A DNA stretch of 40,013 nucleotides from Candidatus Sabulitectum sp. (GTDB lineage Bacteria; Fermentibacterota; Fermentibacteria; Fermentibacterales; JCC-6). Under the pieces are notes generated by a model that saw only the letters and a program-made list of their open reading frames with translations, was not told the DNA's origin and did no database searches. Location of the stretch: NCBI GenBank assembly GCA_029938555.1, contig JAOZUR010000015.1:1-40013 (forward strand). Direction: 5' to 3'. Below are positions 9,231 to 28,428 of this stretch, piece after piece (positions within the stretch are counted from its first letter, which is position 1; each line of letters opens with the position of its first letter). A program made the translations under genes and the position numbers.

Positions 9231-12200
9231 CTGTCTGGTTTTATTCTTGCGCTTGCAATAATTGCGTTGGAACATGTTGAAACTGTTGAGGTTAACTATC
9301 CTGTCCTTACAGAAGTAGACAGTATGAATGCAATTAACATACCTGGTATGTACCCAATTGAAGTTACCGATGAAGCAGTTCTTCCTGGTTCGATCAGGTA
9401 CATTCCAGTACCGCCGGGCTCAGAACCACACCTTGAGTGGTCTGTTGGAGCTGTTGAAAATACAAATTGGAATGATCGGATGATTTTAGCTTCTACCCCG
9501 GAATTTTCCGGTTCAGGGCTTGAAACTACTGAAGAGTTTTACCCAGTGGATTTTCCCTCTGCCCATGATCCAGTATCATTTGAAGTAATACATATTCTTG
9601 GAACAACAGTTGCCCGAGTTCATATATCCCCATTTTGTTATGGAACCCCTAGCCAGTACGCAAAGCAGATCAACTACAGCTTGTCAGTTCCTGACGCTGC
9701 AGGAGGTCGCCCTGTTGAGGGTACTTTATTGCAAAGCCTTTGTCCAAACTCTGAAAGGTGGTGGCCATATACCCAGAGGTCACAAGCCAGTACATTTTGG
9801 GGTAAACCATGGGCCAGAATAAAGGTTAAAAACACTGGTTTTTACAGTGTTACCTGTGAAGAGCTTGAAGCTTCAGGTTGTGCTGTTTCAGGAGTTCCTT
9901 CCGCCTCTCTTGCCATGTTTGCCGGTCCAGGTGAAATGTTTGATCCTGAAAATCCAGGTGATTCCCACGAACTGGCTTCTGTTTCTATCAAGGTTTTTGA
10001 TGGAGGCGACGGTATTTTTGATCAGGCAGATTCATTGGTTTTCTTTGGGCAGGGGTTGTGGCATTGGAATTTTGAATCTGATTCTCTTTACAGATCTTTT
10101 CATCGATTTGATGATTCAAATACCTACTGGCTTACTTGGGGTGGCGAAAATGGAAATAGAATGGAATCGGTGGATGTAACTCCCTCTGGTGGAACGGAAA
10201 TAAACCAAGGTATTGTAACATTTGGATATGAACAGGAAATATTTTGGGAACATGCCGAACACAGAACAGGTTGGTTATGGGGTTTTCTGAGTTCTGAATT
10301 CGCCAGTTATTTCTATTTAGGTTCGCCATTTGCATCGGAGAATGCAACATTAAGATTGTCTGTTATTAATGAAACTTATTCAACACACAGAGTGTGGGCA
10401 GAGTTAGAAGGCATTTCTATTTTAGATACCCTTGGTAACCGACGAATAGAACATTTTACCATTGAAAATGTTTCTGTGAACCAGGAAGGTAATATTTTAA
10501 AAATCTGGAGTGATCACCCCTATAATTCATTTTTTAATTATGCAGAAATTCTGCTTTCAGTGGATTTGTCTGCTTCAGCGGGATATATGGTTGTTTTAGA
10601 GGATTATGTACCAGGGCTTCATTTTATGAGCATCGGTTCAGTTTCCACAGATGCAGAAATTTATGACCTTACTGATCCTTTTCACCCTGTGAAATTTACA
10701 GGATGGTCGTTTGATGGTACAAATGCAGGTTTATCAGTTAACATGTCAGGAGATTTATCGGTTTTTTGGGCTATTGAACCTTCATTCTATCTTTCACCAG
10801 AGAATATAGAGCCTGCACAGCCGGGAAGAATACTTGGTGCATCCTCTCCAGCAGATGTAATTATTACAGTTCCCGAAGTTCTCATTGATGGGATAGCTGT
10901 TCTTGAAGCAATTTATGCATCTCGGGGGCTTTCTGTACTAACTGTCACATACAAGGAAATTTATGATGAGTTCGGCCAGGGCGTTTCTGACCCTGGAGCG
11001 GTTAGATCTTTGGTGAGATGGGCTCTTGATACATGGCCAGACCCACCACAGGCGTTGCTTCTGATTGGTGACGGTTCTAATGATCCGCTTGGGTATTCAA
11101 CCGGTTATAAAACCATTGCACCGGTTAATGTAGAATTACAGTCAGACAACTGTGAAGAATCATATTTTACCACAGTACATACAAACAGTGAACATCCTGA
11201 AATTCCAGTGTCAAGAATTCCTGCTTCTACAATCAATGAACTTCTTGTTGTTTGTGAAAAAACGGTAACTGTGGAAAATAGTGCAAATCATGGCCCTTGG
11301 AGCAATACTGTTTTTCTAGTAGCAGACGACGAATGGGGTAAGGGAGAAAGTTCAAATGAATTTCAATCAACAGATATCTGTGAGCTTCTTGCAGATAGTA
11401 TTGTGCCATTTTCAGCCAATGTGGTAAAACTTTATGAAATAGAGTACCCATGGCCTGCTGGAACTACTGTTGAGGGAATTCATCCTACAAAACCAGAGGC
11501 ATCTTCCGACTTTATAGATCAGCTCAACAAAGGTGTTCTTTATGTTTCCTTTTTTGGACACGGTTCTTACGACCAAATGACTCACGAAAAACTGTTTGCA
11601 TCATCCATGATTAGTCAGCTTTGCAATGCCCCAAGGTACTTTTTGTACAATTCTTTTTCATGTGATAATGGTTTTTTTGATCTTGCAGCTGCTGATTGTA
11701 TTGCAGAAAACCTTCTTTTTCACCCCCAGGGTGGAGCAGTTGCCACGGTGGCCTGTACTCGGGCTAGCTGGACACCTCAGAATGAAGTTTTGTCATCAGC
11801 ATTTATGAGTTTATTGCATCAGGGAACTAATACATTAGCAGAGGCCTTGTGGCTTTCTCAACTTTCCGTTGGCAACATGAACAATTATCTGTATCCAGTT
11901 CTTGGTGATGGGGGTATGACCCTTCCTTGGACGGAAACTGAAGGGTATTCTGTCATGCCGGAGGATACATTGACCAGGGGGCAGATTAGTACTGTAGATG
12001 TGTCTTTTACCCAAGAATCTTCTTTCCTTTTCAGGTGTTTAGAAAGTGCAGACTCTGTGGTGTATGTGAGCCCTCTTAAAGGTAATTGCACCATTGAATA
12101 TTTAAGGTACGGGTCTGAATTGTACAGTAGTATTCTTTCCACTGACCAGTCAGGAGACATTTCTGTAAACTTTTTTGTGCCACTTCAGGCGGATACAGGT

Positions 12201-12932
12201 TTTTCTGCCAGGTGTGACGGCACAGGACGAATTGGATCTGAATTGGGAACAGCTTATGCATGGCCGGTTCCGCTGATAGATACAGGTGATTATGCTGACG
12301 ATACACAGGGCCCTGATATAGAACTTAGTTTTCCAGCTTCCCAAGGAGACGAAATACCATCTGTGTACCAGAATGCCAATCTGCGTGCTGTTCTTTCTGA
12401 TCCTTCAGGTATTTGCGTACTTGGAAATGATGCTGGTTCAATAATTATAGGTTCAGTGGATGGTGGATATGAAGATATTACAGAGTTATTTTCTTATAAT
12501 CAGGGTAGCTATACCACAGGTACTTTAAATTATCAGATACCAGACCTGTTGCCAGGGTTACATGAGATCAGAGTAGTAGCACGAGATGGAATGAAAAACA
12601 CAGGTGAGGCTGTTTTGAATTTCACCGTTTTAAGTAGTGAAACTCCATTATTGGAGAAAACAGGGGTTTACCCTAATCCTGTACAAGGCCCTAGAGCCTT
12701 TTTCTTCACCACATCTTCCACAGGTACGGTTGAAGTCACCGTTTACACAATTGCAGGCCGACCTGTGTGGCGAGATGAAATACTGGTTCAAGATGGTGCT
12801 GGTCAGCTTCTTTGGAACGGCTTGGATTCTGACGGAGATTCTATAGCAGCAGGAGCTTATGTTTACATTATCAAATTTTCAGGTGGCTCTGGTGGAGCGT
12901 CTGCAACTGATGTTCTTGTGGTCAGTCCATGA
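9231..12932 (+). CDS. Secreted C25 (gingipain-like) cysteine protease with C-terminal FlgD-Ig/sorting-like domain
   Basis: From CTG 9231 this is 1233 residues, opening with a signal sequence (SGFILALAIIALEH). A TTG at 9267 would destroy that signal. Alternatively, removing one base from AAAGGGG at 9218-9224 would join ATG 9215 to give MKGIILSGFILALAIIA. A beta-rich N-terminal part (to about 560) precedes the caspase-like C25 domain, where His777 (FFGHGSYDQ) and Cys811 (NSFSCDNG) form the catalytic dyad. Residues from about 1140 (YPNPV...VYTIAGRPVW...WNGLDSDGD...GAYVYIIK) form the FlgD-Ig type tail typical of type IX-like secreted proteins. The stop overlaps the sirtuin start by four bases. 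It is homologous to the protease at 13663-17337. Substrate specificity is unknown. Confidence 0.85.
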   Translation: MSGFILALAIIALEHVETVEVNYPVLTEVDSMNAINIPGMYPIEVTDEAVLPGSIRYIPVPPGSEPHLEWSVGAVENTNWNDRMILASTPEFSGSGLETTEEFYPVDFPSAHDPVSFEVIHILGTTVARVHISPFCYGTPSQYAKQINYSLSVPDAAGGRPVEGTLLQSLCPNSERWWPYTQRSQASTFWGKPWARIKVKNTGFYSVTCEELEASGCAVSGVPSASLAMFAGPGEMFDPENPGDSHELASVSIKVFDGGDGIFDQADSLVFFGQGLWHWNFESDSLYRSFHRFDDSNTYWLTWGGENGNRMESVDVTPSGGTEINQGIVTFGYEQEIFWEHAEHRTGWLWGFLSSEFASYFYLGSPFASENATLRLSVINETYSTHRVWAELEGISILDTLGNRRIEHFTIENVSVNQEGNILKIWSDHPYNSFFNYAEILLSVDLSASAGYMVVLEDYVPGLHFMSIGSVSTDAEIYDLTDPFHPVKFTGWSFDGTNAGLSVNMSGDLSVFWAIEPSFYLSPENIEPAQPGRILGASSPADVIITVPEVLIDGIAVLEAIYASRGLSVLTVTYKEIYDEFGQGVSDPGAVRSLVRWALDTWPDPPQALLLIGDGSNDPLGYSTGYKTIAPVNVELQSDNCEESYFTTVHTNSEHPEIPVSRIPASTINELLVVCEKTVTVENSANHGPWSNTVFLVADDEWGKGESSNEFQSTDICELLADSIVPFSANVVKLYEIEYPWPAGTTVEGIHPTKPEASSDFIDQLNKGVLYVSFFGHGSYDQMTHEKLFASSMISQLCNAPRYFLYNSFSCDNGFFDLAAADCIAENLLFHPQGGAVATVACTRASWTPQNEVLSSAFMSLLHQGTNTLAEALWLSQLSVGNMNNYLYPVLGDGGMTLPWTETEGYSVMPEDTLTRGQISTVDVSFTQESSFLFRCLESADSVVYVSPLKGNCTIEYLRYGSELYSSILSTDQSGDISVNFFVPLQADTGFSARCDGTGRIGSELGTAYAWPVPLIDTGDYADDTQGPDIELSFPASQGDEIPSVYQNANLRAVLSDPSGICVLGNDAGSIIIGSVDGGYEDITELFSYNQGSYTTGTLNYQIPDLLPGLHEIRVVARDGMKNTGEAVLNFTVLSSETPLLEKTGVYPNPVQGPRAFFFTTSSTGTVEVTVYTIAGRPVWRDEILVQDGAGQLLWNGLDSDGDSIAAGAYVYIIKFSGGSGGASATDVLVVSP

Positions 12933-13662: not shown

Positions 13663-16600
13663 ATGACTGTGTTTTCGCTGATTACAATTCTTGTTGCTTC
13701 CTGGAGTGGAACTTTCAATTTCCCAGTGGCAGATATTGATCCGTCTGGTCTTCCTGTTATTCAGGGAACTGTAAATCTTAATGAACCTGGTGTTCCCATG
13801 TATCCTGTAAAAACTTTGTTCATACCTGTTCCACCGGGAATTGATCTTGAACTCAGTTATTCTATAAATTCTTCTAATTTATCTTTGAACACAGCAACGA
13901 TCCCCCGAGGTGGCGAGCTGGTAGGCTCTGGGCTTGAAGCCCATGTTGTTCCAGTAGAACCTGTTGATTTCCTGGTGCAGACTGTAGAACTTGATGGTGT
14001 ATTTCCCCTTGCTGGCAGCCAAGTTGCTGTGGTGAATATTTATCCGTACACGGAACATGGTTCAGTTTCTTCTGTGTCTGTTTCATTAAACTGGAATGGT
14101 GGAGTTTCAGGCCAGAGAATTCCTGAAAAACATCTTCTTAACAGGTTGGCTCAGAGTGAATTGTACTGGCCGGTGAGTTTTTCCAGAGAAACTAGCCCAT
14201 TCTGGGGCAAACCATGGGCGAAAATTTCTATACAGAATTCAGGTAGTTATCAGCTAACATGTTCTGAACTTGAAGCTTCCAATTGTGCCGTTACCGGTGT
14301 TCCTGTTAACAGCCTTTCTCTTTTTTCAGGACCTGGAACGCAATTTGCAAATCAACAGGAAACTGAGCATTTACTTCAGCCGATTGCAATTCTTGTTCAA
14401 GACAAAAATAATGATGGTATTTTTAACGGTGATGATGTTATTCGATTTCTTGCTGGTGGTCTGAATAGGTTTGAATACTCTAATAGCGGTCTAAACTGGC
14501 TTTTCAACAGGTACGCAACCGATAGAATTTACTGGCTCACCTGGGGTGGTGAATCCGGAGTTAGAATGCAGAGTGAAGCTGGTTCACCTGATGATTCTCC
14601 TGATTGGGGTAATACAGTTGAGCATACAGTTCATCTGGAAGACGGTGGTTATTGGTATCCAAGGTTTGAACTAAGAACAGGCTGGTTCTGGGAAAAAATC
14701 AATTCTGGCGAACAGACACAAGTTCCATTAAATCTTGCAGATGCATCTGGTACTGCTGATGTTACCGTTGCTTTTGCAGTTTCAGAATCATCTGCTTACT
14801 CTGTAACACTTCAAGGCGGTGGAACTGCGGAACTTAGTGGATCAGGTCCTAAGAGATATGTATTCAAAAATGTAAATATTTCCGGGCTTAATCAGCTTCA
14901 GATCAGTTTTTCTTCCACAGATCCAACCTCTGATTTTTACCTTGATTATGTAGAGTTGTTTTATTCAGTATCAACAACCTCTTCTAACCGAAGGCTTTTC
15001 TTTCCAGGTCAGTCTGGCAGATATAATTTTTCTTTTTCGCAGGGAACTACTGCGTTTGACGTGACAGATTTGATGAATCCTGTATTAATTTCAGAAGCAG
15101 ATCAATCTTCCGGTTCGTTGAAATTTTCAGTTGATCTTCAAGATTCAACTTCGCTTATGGTTGTGAGTGAAGATAGCTGGTTATCTCCTGTTTCTATCAA
15201 TTCTTCTGCAGCAGGCAGACTTGTTGGCACAGTTTCTTCTGGGGACAGGTTGCTTGTGGTTCCAGATGTGTTTCTTGATCATGCTGCAGGGTTGCAATCT
15301 ATTCTGGAAAGCATGGGTCTTGAGGTTGTTACCGCCACCACCAGTGAAATTTATGATGAATTTGGTCAAGGGGTAAAAGATCCAGGAGCCATCCGCTCAG
15401 CAGTGAGATGGGCTCTTGATTCATGGTCTACACCGGTAAGCGGTGTTATTCTTGGTGCTGATGCAACCTATGATCCTTTAAATTACAGTACAACTTTGCC
15501 AGATCTTGTGCCAGCAATGATTTTTCTAGAGAACGACTTCAGTTATCCGTCATGGGCATCTGAAGACTGGTTTGTTCAAGTGCATCCAAACGCTGGATTT
15601 CCTGAAATCCCCATAACTCGAATTCCAGCTGGTGATGTTTCTTCATTTGGTACAGTGATTGCTAAAAGTGCTTTGTATTATTCAGCACAAGCCCAGGGAA
15701 GCTGGAGTAACAGGTTTGTTCTTTTTGCAGATGATGAATGGGGTGAAAAAACATACAGTGAGAATGAGCATACAGAGGATATGGAAACAATATGTTACGA
15801 TGATTTGCCATCTCATGTGAAACCAGAGAAGTTTTATCAGATTGAATATCCGTGGCCTCCAGGAACTGTTCCCGGTGGTGTTCACCCTGAAAAACCCGAA
15901 GCCCGTGTGGATTTGATTGATCTTTGGAATGAGGGAATGGGCGCTCTTCTTTTCTTTGGACACGGTTCTGCCAATCAGATTACTCATGAGAAAACTATGC
16001 TGGGTGATGATCCGGCTTCGCTGACAAACGGAGCAAGATTGCCTCTAGCCATGTTTCTTTCTTGTGATGTTTCCAGATTTTTTGTACCGGGAGTTAACTG
16101 TATAAGTGAAAAACTTGTTTACCACCCTGCCGGTGGTGCTATTGCAACCATAGGTGCCACTGGAGGAACATTCTCTTCGCCTAATTATAGTTACGCAGCA
16201 GCAATGATTCCTTTTCTTACTAATGATGAAAATTCCATTGGATATTCATTTTGGGCAGGTAAATTGAATGCACACAAAGCTGGCAATTCCGAGTATTATG
16301 TTTTGATGGGGCTGTCGGATCTGGTTCTACCAATGTCAAGAAACGATCTTTCAATTTCCCTTCAGAGTGATACTCTTCGCTCTGGTGAAATCAATGTGGT
16401 TTCAGGTGAAGGAGTTTCCCGAGACGGACTTGCTTTAATAGAAATTTCCGAGTCAGATATTCCTGCAAGTTACACAATGTTGTCTGGTGGAGTTATAGAC
16501 TACTTCCGTCAGGGAGGTACAGCATGGAGGGGTAGATCGGCACTTTTCAACCACGAGTTTACAGCTGATTGCATTCTTCCAGTTGCGTGCAAAACAGGTG

Positions 16601-17337
16601 ATCTTGCAAGAATCGATGGTGCAGCTATAGTTCCAGGTGGAATTGAACTTGGTGCTGATGCTCCTAGAATTCTTGTTGAAGGAGAAAGTCAATCTGATTT
16701 TATCGGTCCAGATATTTCAATGTGGATACGGGGGCAAAGTGGAGTAAACGAGCCAACCATCACAGGGCAAGGCGTACTGGAAGCTGAGCTTTCAGATCCC
16801 AGTGGAATAACATTTTTAGGAAGAACAGGCAGAAGCATACAGCTTTTTGTAGACAATGAAGAATTTGATTTGAGCGAATCCTTCACATACAATACAGGTT
16901 CAACTGTTACCGGTCAGCTTGAGTATACTGTTTCTGGTCTTGCTTCTGGAAGACATCTTTTTATTCTTCAAGCCATGGATGGCGTGGGTAATCTTTCTAG
17001 AGATAGTTTGTTTGTGAATTCAACTGATCAGAGTGAAGTTGCCATTGAGCAGCACATTGTGTATCCTAATCCGGGGACAGGTCAGAGGTGTTTCAGTTTT
17101 TCCGTCTCTTCAAATGCCTTTGTTTCAGTATCGGTGTTTACCACAACCGGCAGATGTATAAATACTTTCTCGAAACAGTGTAGCCAGGGATACAATCAGA
17201 TACTCTGGAATGGACTTGATGCTGATGGAGACATTCCTGCATCAGGAGCATACATATATGTTATTAATGCTGAAACTGAAGGTGGATTGTTCCATCAGTC
17301 ATCTTCAGTAACAGGAGTTTTAGCCACAGTAAACTGA
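13663..17337 (+). CDS. Second secreted C25 (gingipain-like) cysteine protease, paralogue
   Basis: This 1224-residue protein begins MTVFSLITILVASWSG, a short signal peptide, with AAAGGAG six bases before the ATG. It has the same plan as the protease at 9231: beta-rich N-terminal part, C25 domain with His767 (FFGHGSANQ) and Cys801 (FLSCDVSR), and a FlgD-Ig type tail (VYPNPGTGQRC, VFTTTGRC, WNGLDADGD, GAYIYVI). The His-Cys spacing of 34 residues is identical in both. Shared blocks such as EIYDEFGQGV.DPGA.RS.VRWALD, YWLTWGGE and F.ADDEWG show common descent, but the sequences have diverged widely, so the duplication is old. Both keep their catalytic residues. It lies between the sirtuin and the TPR-HTH gene in one operon. 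Confidence 0.9.
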   Translation: MTVFSLITILVASWSGTFNFPVADIDPSGLPVIQGTVNLNEPGVPMYPVKTLFIPVPPGIDLELSYSINSSNLSLNTATIPRGGELVGSGLEAHVVPVEPVDFLVQTVELDGVFPLAGSQVAVVNIYPYTEHGSVSSVSVSLNWNGGVSGQRIPEKHLLNRLAQSELYWPVSFSRETSPFWGKPWAKISIQNSGSYQLTCSELEASNCAVTGVPVNSLSLFSGPGTQFANQQETEHLLQPIAILVQDKNNDGIFNGDDVIRFLAGGLNRFEYSNSGLNWLFNRYATDRIYWLTWGGESGVRMQSEAGSPDDSPDWGNTVEHTVHLEDGGYWYPRFELRTGWFWEKINSGEQTQVPLNLADASGTADVTVAFAVSESSAYSVTLQGGGTAELSGSGPKRYVFKNVNISGLNQLQISFSSTDPTSDFYLDYVELFYSVSTTSSNRRLFFPGQSGRYNFSFSQGTTAFDVTDLMNPVLISEADQSSGSLKFSVDLQDSTSLMVVSEDSWLSPVSINSSAAGRLVGTVSSGDRLLVVPDVFLDHAAGLQSILESMGLEVVTATTSEIYDEFGQGVKDPGAIRSAVRWALDSWSTPVSGVILGADATYDPLNYSTTLPDLVPAMIFLENDFSYPSWASEDWFVQVHPNAGFPEIPITRIPAGDVSSFGTVIAKSALYYSAQAQGSWSNRFVLFADDEWGEKTYSENEHTEDMETICYDDLPSHVKPEKFYQIEYPWPPGTVPGGVHPEKPEARVDLIDLWNEGMGALLFFGHGSANQITHEKTMLGDDPASLTNGARLPLAMFLSCDVSRFFVPGVNCISEKLVYHPAGGAIATIGATGGTFSSPNYSYAAAMIPFLTNDENSIGYSFWAGKLNAHKAGNSEYYVLMGLSDLVLPMSRNDLSISLQSDTLRSGEINVVSGEGVSRDGLALIEISESDIPASYTMLSGGVIDYFRQGGTAWRGRSALFNHEFTADCILPVACKTGDLARIDGAAIVPGGIELGADAPRILVEGESQSDFIGPDISMWIRGQSGVNEPTITGQGVLEAELSDPSGITFLGRTGRSIQLFVDNEEFDLSESFTYNTGSTVTGQLEYTVSGLASGRHLFILQAMDGVGNLSRDSLFVNSTDQSEVAIEQHIVYPNPGTGQRCFSFSVSSNAFVSVSVFTTTGRCINTFSKQCSQGYNQILWNGLDADGDIPASGAYIYVINAETEGGLFHQSSSVTGVLATVN

Positions 17338-27126: not shown

Positions 27127-27174
27127 TCAATTGGTTTCATGAAATATATTTGTATTAAATTTACAGGGGGTCTA

Positions 27175-28389
27175 ATGAGAATTTTGCCAATGTTGTTGTT
27201 GGTGATAGTCGGGGTTATTTTTGCCCAAGCTCCGAATTATCAGTCTTTTTACTATCAAGAGTGTGCTGGTGTGGCTATTGATGTTGGTAACTATGGGGCT
27301 CCGTGTATAGCAGACTGGAATAATGACGGTAATAAGGATATGGTTCTTGGAATCTTTAGTGGTGGAAATATCCGATTCTATGCAAATGATAATACCAATG
27401 ATTCACCTGTATTCAGCAGTTATTCAACTTTGAAGGCAGACGGTGTTACCATCTCCCTTCCTTCCGGTTGATGCACCGGTGCTACAAATCCACAGGTTGT
27501 GGATTGGAACGGTGACGGTTTTGATGATATTATTGTTGGCGACAGAGAAGGGTTTATAACATTTTTTGAACGAACAGGTTCTGGTATAGATGATTTATCT
27601 TCGCAGGGGCATCTCTCTGCCAGTGGAACAGTTATTGATGTTGGTGCTAACTCGTCACCTATTGTTGTAGACTGGAACAATGATGGTCTTCTTGATCTTC
27701 TTATTGGTAATGAGGCTTCAACACAGGGTATCAGATTGTATCTGAATTCAGGAACAACAACAAATCCTATTCTTACTTCTTGGTCTTACATTCAAAGCGA
27801 AGGATCAAATATCAACCGATATCGCTGTTGCCCACAGGTTTATGATATGAATGGTGATGGTAAAAAAGATCTGATAATGGGCGAGGATGATGGTCAGATT
27901 TATTATTACGAGAATACCGGTACTGATGCAGCTCCAGTTTTCAGCGGATACGAAGCAATTCAGAACAATGGATCTCCACTTTCGCTTTATTATGGAACAA
28001 GACTTTGGGTGAATGATTGGGATGAAAATGGTCTTCCTGATCTTATAGTCAGTGATTTTGATGGATTTGTAAATGTATTTCTTGCTAATCCTGTAGGAGT
28101 TGCCGAGTTTTCTTCTTCTTTGATTCAAACTGATTTTTTCGTGACTCCTGCCATGAACCCGGCACAAGGGAATCTGAATGTAAATGTACATGTTTCACAG
28201 GTTGGAAATGTAGATCTCAGAGTTTACGATTCTGCTGGAAGGCTTGTTTCAGCGAAAAACCTTTCCGGTCTTTCAAATGGTGCTAATGTTGTAACGATAG
28301 ATGCAGGCTCTATTGCTACCGGTGTTTATACCGTTGTGGTCACATCCGAGACTGATGTATCATCTTGCAGAATGGTTTTAACTCAGTAA
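27175..28389 (+). CDS. Secreted FG-GAP/VCBS-repeat protein with in-frame TGA, candidate selenoprotein
   Basis: The frame from ATG 27175 (GGGGG just upstream, signal peptide MRILPMLLLVIVGVIFAQ) is interrupted once, by TGA at codon 99 (27469-27471), and then continues in the same frame to TAA at 28389, giving 404 codons. Both halves carry the same calcium-loop repeats (IADWNNDGNKDMVLG, VVDWNGDGFDDIIVG, VVDWNNDGLLDLLIG, VYDMNGDGKKDLIMG, VNDWDENGLPDLIVS), so they are one protein, a beta-propeller-like surface protein. The tail (about residues 330-404: VDLRVYDSAGRLV, ATGVYTVVV) is a sorting-like domain. TGA precedes Cys100; a later repeat has Cys218-Cys219 at the matching place. A SECIS-like hairpin follows. 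Either selenocysteine, nonsense mutation or sequence error. Confidence 0.8.
27474..27514 (+). promoter_or_regulatory. Candidate bacterial SECIS element
   Basis: AATCCAC (27487-27493) and GTGGATT (27499-27505) form a perfect 7-bp stem around the five-base loop AGGTT, which begins 22 bases after the TGA. Outer arms CACCG (27474-27478) and CGGTG (27510-27514) can extend it across an internal loop. Loop position, loop size and a G in the first two loop bases meet the usual description of bacterial SECIS elements, and AGGT resembles the Escherichia coli fdhF loop. There is no bulged U in the upper stem. Confidence 0.5.
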
Positions 28390-28396
28390 AAAACAG

Positions 28397-28428
28397 AAAA
28401 AAGGGCAGCCAAACGGCTGCCCTTTTTT
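28397..28428. terminator. Bidirectional rho-independent terminator
   Basis: GGGCAGCC (28403-28410) and GGCTGCCC (28415-28422) form a perfect 8-bp stem with an AAAC loop, flanked by AAAAAA on the left and TTTTTT on the right. It lies between the convergent FG-GAP and epimerase genes and can stop transcription from both sides. Confidence 0.9.

Follow-up and report, generated by a model that had tools for sequence, protein, structure and literature searches.

What is the meaning of a TGA codon that lies within the otherwise open frame of a gene for a predicted surface propeller protein? The window, that is, the whole stretch of 40,013 nucleotides that was analysed, is one contig of the 3.03 Mb, 151-contig genome of Candidatus Sabulitectum sp. 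(Fermentibacterota), and the gene in question, with all the elements described for it, is on the + strand. A Shine-Dalgarno-like AGGGGG stretch (27165-27171) precedes an ATG at 27175, from which the frame (27175-28389, 404 codons) runs to a TAA at 28387-28389; its sole internal stop is the TGA at codon 99 (27469-27471), and a strong intrinsic terminator (-24 kcal/mol) is found directly 3' of the full-length frame, at 28397-28428. The predicted product consists of a signal peptide, a five-bladed FG-GAP beta-propeller and a C-terminal Ig-like T9SS sorting domain. FG-GAP repeats flank the TGA on either side (Pfam FG-GAP_3, four stretches, E 4e-20), and 3' of it are encoded blades 2 to 5, in which D-x-[DN]-x-D loops of the calcium type are conserved (27484-28092), and the type A sorting domain (28156-28386; Por_Secre_tail, E 6e-9; TIGR04183, 35.4 bits against a cut-off of 23). 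The codon following the TGA is a TGC (27472-27474), whose product, Cys100, is a nearly invariant partner of residue 99 in the homologue alignment. A preliminary description of this DNA had proposed an intact frame broken by this TGA alone, calcium-loop repeats in the same frame on both sides of it, and an adjoining Cys at codons 99-100; these features are indeed present. From the comparative evidence that follows, we put the probability that the TGA is read as selenocysteine (Sec99) at about 97%.

The TGA codon among homologues

Might the TGA be a nonsense mutation or a base error confined to one metagenome-assembled genome (MAG), the gene being then a pseudogene in decay, or the codon a miscalled TGC or TGT? 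The genome is indeed a draft MAG, and TGC and TGT each differ from TGA by one base. The search of 60 relatives yielded about 100 homologues of the propeller gene, from which 99 frames were collected, and exactly one internal TGA is found in 96 of the 99, almost always at the aligned codon. Nearly all of the frames with an internal TGA share the motif [SY]G-U-C-TGATNPQVVDWNGDG, and variant motifs at the Sec site are CUPKTGA, SUCGPS, UATGA, GGUNDWS, STUGHAAT and QUGVC. Across the alignment, codon 99 is TGA or Cys with rare exceptions. Because the same TGA occurs in about a hundred genes from dozens of separately assembled genomes, assembly error is excluded. Purifying selection also persists 3' of the TGA (dN/dS about 0.09-0.21), and the adjoining RNA hairpin is conserved, so that the rival which the preliminary description had itself raised is refuted, and we give it next to no credence.

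A different proposal is that UGA is a general sense codon, for Trp or Gly, in these organisms, as the continuation of the frame through the TGA would allow. It was claimed earlier that the code is standard and that seven named window genes stop at TGA; all seven do end in TGA, as do 35 of the 99 family genes, where it is the real stop. In the latter, one codon would thus serve as Sec and as stop within a single gene. There is, moreover, a single internal TGA per gene, next to a hairpin. The host encodes tRNA-Sec, SelA, SelB and SelD, and relatives whose genomes lack SelA have Cys where others have the TGA. A general reassignment of UGA is accordingly scarcely credible, and selenocysteine remains our reading of the codon.

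Paralogues are numerous in some genomes, with nine TGA copies in one (G008) and eight in another (G028). The MAG PL23a_bin.125 carries six tandem FG-GAP selenoprotein genes (L119:13-8041), and every one of the six has a UGA and a hairpin. A tandem paralogue of another kind (L037:38-1246 and L114:7380-8588) has GAA (Glu) at the Sec codon and Thr for the next Cys, and retains the SECIS sequence CCACAGGTTGTGG intact; it looks like a recent loss of Sec. Since one tandem paralogue has Glu at this position, at least one copy of the protein can do without Sec.

The SECIS-type hairpin and the selenocysteine machinery

If the codon is read as Sec, a recognition element should be found close behind it. 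A hairpin of the bacterial SECIS type, AAUCCAC-AGGUU-GUGGAUU, lies at 27487-27505. Its AGGUU loop, 22 nt downstream of the UGA, is closed by a 7 bp stem, or by one of 8 bp if the loop is taken as GGU, with a minimum free energy of -7.7 to -8.8 kcal/mol. Published rules for bacterial SECIS elements call for an apical loop of 3-9 nt with G in the first two positions, a stem of 4-16 bp, a location 16-37 nt after the UGA and a minimum free energy of -7.5 or lower (PMC13188914), and the window hairpin is in agreement with every one of them. As a single fold it is weak (z -1.6), and a stem of at least 8 bp lies in the SECIS position by chance at about 2.5% of the window's TGAs, so that the argument rests on conservation. 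An Rfam scan of the window gave no match.

The conservation is of several kinds. In 90 genes the codons under the hairpin are nearly fixed, when judged against background frequencies taken from the same genes: Asn is AAT in 78/78 (background 0.42), Pro is CCA in 82/90 (0.16), Gln is CAG in 90/90 (0.85), the second Val is GTG in 87/87 (0.24), Ala is GCT in 31/31 (0.25) and Ser is AGT in 11/11 (0.13). Across phyla the middle stem pair is found as A-U, G-C, C-G and U-A, which are compensatory changes, and in one member with Glu for Val the pairing is preserved as CCU...GAG. Paired cells amount to 88.8%, versus 23-44% in slid controls, and the covariation score of the hairpin is 0.144, versus 0.02-0.05 in those controls.

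Does the host possess the means to decode such a signal? The genome encodes SelA (E 2e-134), SelB (327 bits, above the cut-off), a tRNA-Sec with anticodon TCA (70 bits) and two different SelD proteins, so that selA, selB, selC and selD, which the preliminary description had named as the genes to look for, are all accounted for. Both SelD genes (L017 and L018) are themselves selenoprotein genes, each with its own in-frame TGA, and their SECIS hairpins, some 21 nt beyond the UGA, have AGGUU and AGGCU as loops. A further SelB-like match in the host (G000:C98:46947-47816, L011), of 190 bits and below the selB cut-off, lies in an open frame of 399 aa and is probably EF-Tu, as judged from length only.

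A stem-loop 3' of a stop codon can also promote read-through, and one may ask whether programmed read-through by a near-cognate tRNA, yielding products of 98 aa and 404 aa, would account for the gene without selenocysteine; a short product bearing the signal peptide is conceivable. The loop and spacing of the hairpin agree, however, with those of the host SelD SECIS elements, the residue exchanges with Cys, TGA copies track SelA, and neither TAG nor TAA was seen at the Sec codon among the homologues. We regard read-through of this kind as very improbable. For selenocysteine the proposed sequence of events is that SelB with Sec-tRNA(UCA) would recognise the hairpin, located 22 nt past the UGA, whereupon Sec would be inserted at codon 99 in place of termination.

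Distribution and the exchange of selenocysteine with cysteine

How widespread is the family? A scan of species genomes found TGA homologues with the motif UCxGxxPQ in WOR-3 (Caldifarciminota), Chitinivibrionales (Fibrobacterota), Verrucomicrobiota and several Planctomycetota, the last including a MAG labelled Kuenenia. In Nitrospirota homologues the Sec is one residue later, in GUMG. Together with Fermentibacterota, at least six phyla (WOR-3, Fibrobacterota, Planctomycetota, Verrucomicrobiota and Nitrospirota being the others) carry TGA members. Two of the Nitrospirota genes (L133:6055-6957 and L139:5950-6981) place Sec at position 100, as UMG, without a vicinal Cys; some ten residues before the Sec there is a CxxxC pair. 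A strong homologue is present in 85 of 246 sampled Planctomycetota genomes, and most of these matches hold one TGA; 26 of 30 Planctomycetota loci inspected are Sec forms. A TGA copy is found in about 70 of the 246 and in most Fermentibacterota examined, so that the protein may rank among the commoner selenoproteins of these groups. In all, more than 130 TGA-bearing genes were inspected individually, and the number is about 200 if Planctomycetota genes counted automatically are included. Standard annotation would truncate every one of these family members at the UGA.

Exchange of Sec with Cys is seen between relatives, as in GUCIGFTPQ of one locus (L196) versus GCCIGFTPQ of another (L205), the latter in a genome that has SelA. 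Two CC forms with YCCVGAQPR (L220 and L222) are from genomes without full-length SelA. At position 100, C is found in 45 of 48 aligned rows, where two of the 45 are Sec codons rendered as C, and a second Sec/Cys exchange occurs at this position, with Sec in the Nitrospirota L133 and L139 versus L127 and L137. On a tree of 78 proteins, built by a quick search, five residue-state changes suffice, versus 16.4 with shuffled labels.

Most of the genomes compared are MAGs. Among Planctomycetota, 44 of the 45 TGA-carrying genomes have SelA, versus 14 of the other 35 (Fisher p 4e-9, with no correction for shared ancestry). Strong full-length SelA was found in 21 of the 24 TGA-carrying genomes of named loci, with one partial match (L122) and two without any. 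Full-length SelA was not found in the TGA-carrying genomes of L116, L122 and L147, all outside Fermentibacterota, nor in that of the planctomycete G306; these are mostly fragmented MAGs, the genome of L122 being deposited as a chromosome. Within Fermentibacterota, the only TGA genomes without SelA are MAGs that are 61-77% complete.

The predicted product, its possible chemistry and known systems

The signal peptide and the T9SS sorting tail make it probable that the product is anchored at the cell surface after export. The host also encodes the T9SS translocon protein SprA (SprA_N over the cut-off), and a type A sorting domain accompanied by a T9SS component in the same genome is what one looks for in T9SS cargo. 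With all the evidence taken together, the gene at 27175-28389 very likely encodes a secreted selenoprotein, a judgement that does not extend to its specific chemistry. Elsewhere in the window, two large peptidase C25 proteins (gingipain / PorU-like; 9267-12932 and 13663-17337) flank a Sir2-family gene. As C25 proteases are typical of T9SS systems, these two may belong to the secretion route used by the propeller, as sortase or as cargo. No recurrent gene neighbour was found among 30 loci, apart from synteny within Fermentibacterota.

An AlphaFold2 model from a 48-sequence alignment (mean pLDDT 90.7) predicts a five-bladed propeller with an Ig-like C-terminal domain. With its D-x-[DN]-x-D(G) loops, the protein has the marks of an FG-GAP beta-propeller, the fold being predicted; a seven-bladed propeller of the integrin type was considered and rejected, the model having five blades. 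A Foldseek search of the PDB returned partial propeller matches only, to integrins, CRTAC1 and a secreted esterase, with best TM-scores of about 0.4-0.46, and no solved structure closely matching the whole fold. The model places Sec99-Cys100 just before residues 104-109, which make up the innermost strand of blade 2. In integrins and similar FG-GAP propellers, ligands are bound on the face made by the loops that lead into the innermost strands, the calcium loops being on the opposite one. By transfer from the integrins, the Sec-Cys pair would thus be in a loop on the ligand face.

What might a selenol do there? Its likeliest role is in surface redox chemistry or in the binding of a soft ligand: the reactive selenol could close a Sec99-Cys100 selenenylsulfide, or could bind a soft metal or metalloid. 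A surface redox role is possible, and we offer it tentatively, at somewhat less than even odds. Alternatively the protein is a selenoprotein in which Sec-Cys is a structural centre, or a ligand centre for soft metal(loid)s such as mercury, arsenic or copper, and is not catalytic in a redox sense. Adjacent Cys-Sec pairs do occur in the catalogued organometal- or metal-binding selenoproteins SaoL, HgcA and MbdU (PMC13188914). In the model, Cys44 and Cys218/219 are where the innermost strands of blades 1 and 4 begin, so that in the Fermentibacterota branch thiols and selenol might form a cluster at the mouth of the channel. These extra cysteines are not family-wide, being found in 18 and 9 of 48 rows, and in the Nitrospirota forms Sec stands alone, with no Cys next to it; we consider the ligand-centre alternative possible, if less likely than not and slightly less so than the redox role. 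Under either chemistry, selenocysteine would be carried on a secreted propeller scaffold, which is otherwise known for ligand binding and adhesion.

Has such a family been described? The preliminary description knew of no FG-GAP propeller among known selenoproteins, and the catalogue of May 2026, which has 119 prokaryotic selenoprotein families, contains no FG-GAP, VCBS or propeller family (PMC13188914). Nor does one appear in a 2022 review, the deep-Sep paper or a tRNA-Sec survey. NCBIfam 20 offers no selenoprotein model among its matches to the gene product. Searching full-text literature for selenoprotein together with FG-GAP gave unrelated papers only, and a description in a preprint or a subscription-only article could exist. 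The main text of a planctomycete genome paper names only enzymes as selenoprotein candidates, the list of candidates being in its supplement (PMC4807772), and a literature search on vicinal disulfides in propellers led to a single paper, on a PQQ enzyme. The suggestion of a new selenoprotein family has gained support, then, from the Sec machinery, the TGA and Cys homologues, the SECIS hairpin and the absence from the catalogue. We think it likely that these genes represent a large, old and uncatalogued family of secreted, five-bladed FG-GAP propeller selenoproteins, which is spread over at least six phyla, often as multiple paralogues in a single genome, and whose ligand face would support a selenium-dependent activity of a new kind outside the cell, or the capture of soft ligands. 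Such a family enlarges the selenoproteome and may help to explain why many of these bacteria retain the Sec machinery, and its natural Sec, Cys and no-Sec variants are a ready set for probing the role of extracellular selenium.

How does the window protein compare with known systems? Redox enzymes with a thioredoxin fold or a metal cofactor make up most of the catalogued prokaryotic selenoproteins, and the catalogue has no T9SS-tailed propeller. With SelD and FdhA, which have a SECIS element right after the UGA, it shares the UGA, the spacing and the loop rule, the host SelD loops being AGGUU and AGGCU as noted; those proteins are enzymes of other folds, whereas this is a propeller with a T9SS tail. 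SaoL, SaoC, HgcA, KCU-star and MbdU (PMC13188914) likewise have a vicinal thiol/selenol pair, but the order there is Cys-Sec, here it is Sec-Cys, and the fold is unrelated. The TonB-dependent receptor selenoprotein (NF049945) is also at the cell surface, as an outer-membrane barrel receptor with CxxU, in contrast to a secreted propeller. With T9SS type A cargo (TIGR04183) the protein has the C-terminal sorting domain in common, over the cut-off. Its calcium-loop repeat and architecture are those of the FG-GAP/VCBS propellers (PF13517, PF01839), among them integrin alpha, CRTAC1 and the secreted esterase of S. griseus; integrins have seven blades, whereas the window protein has a predicted five and, on our reading, carries selenocysteine.
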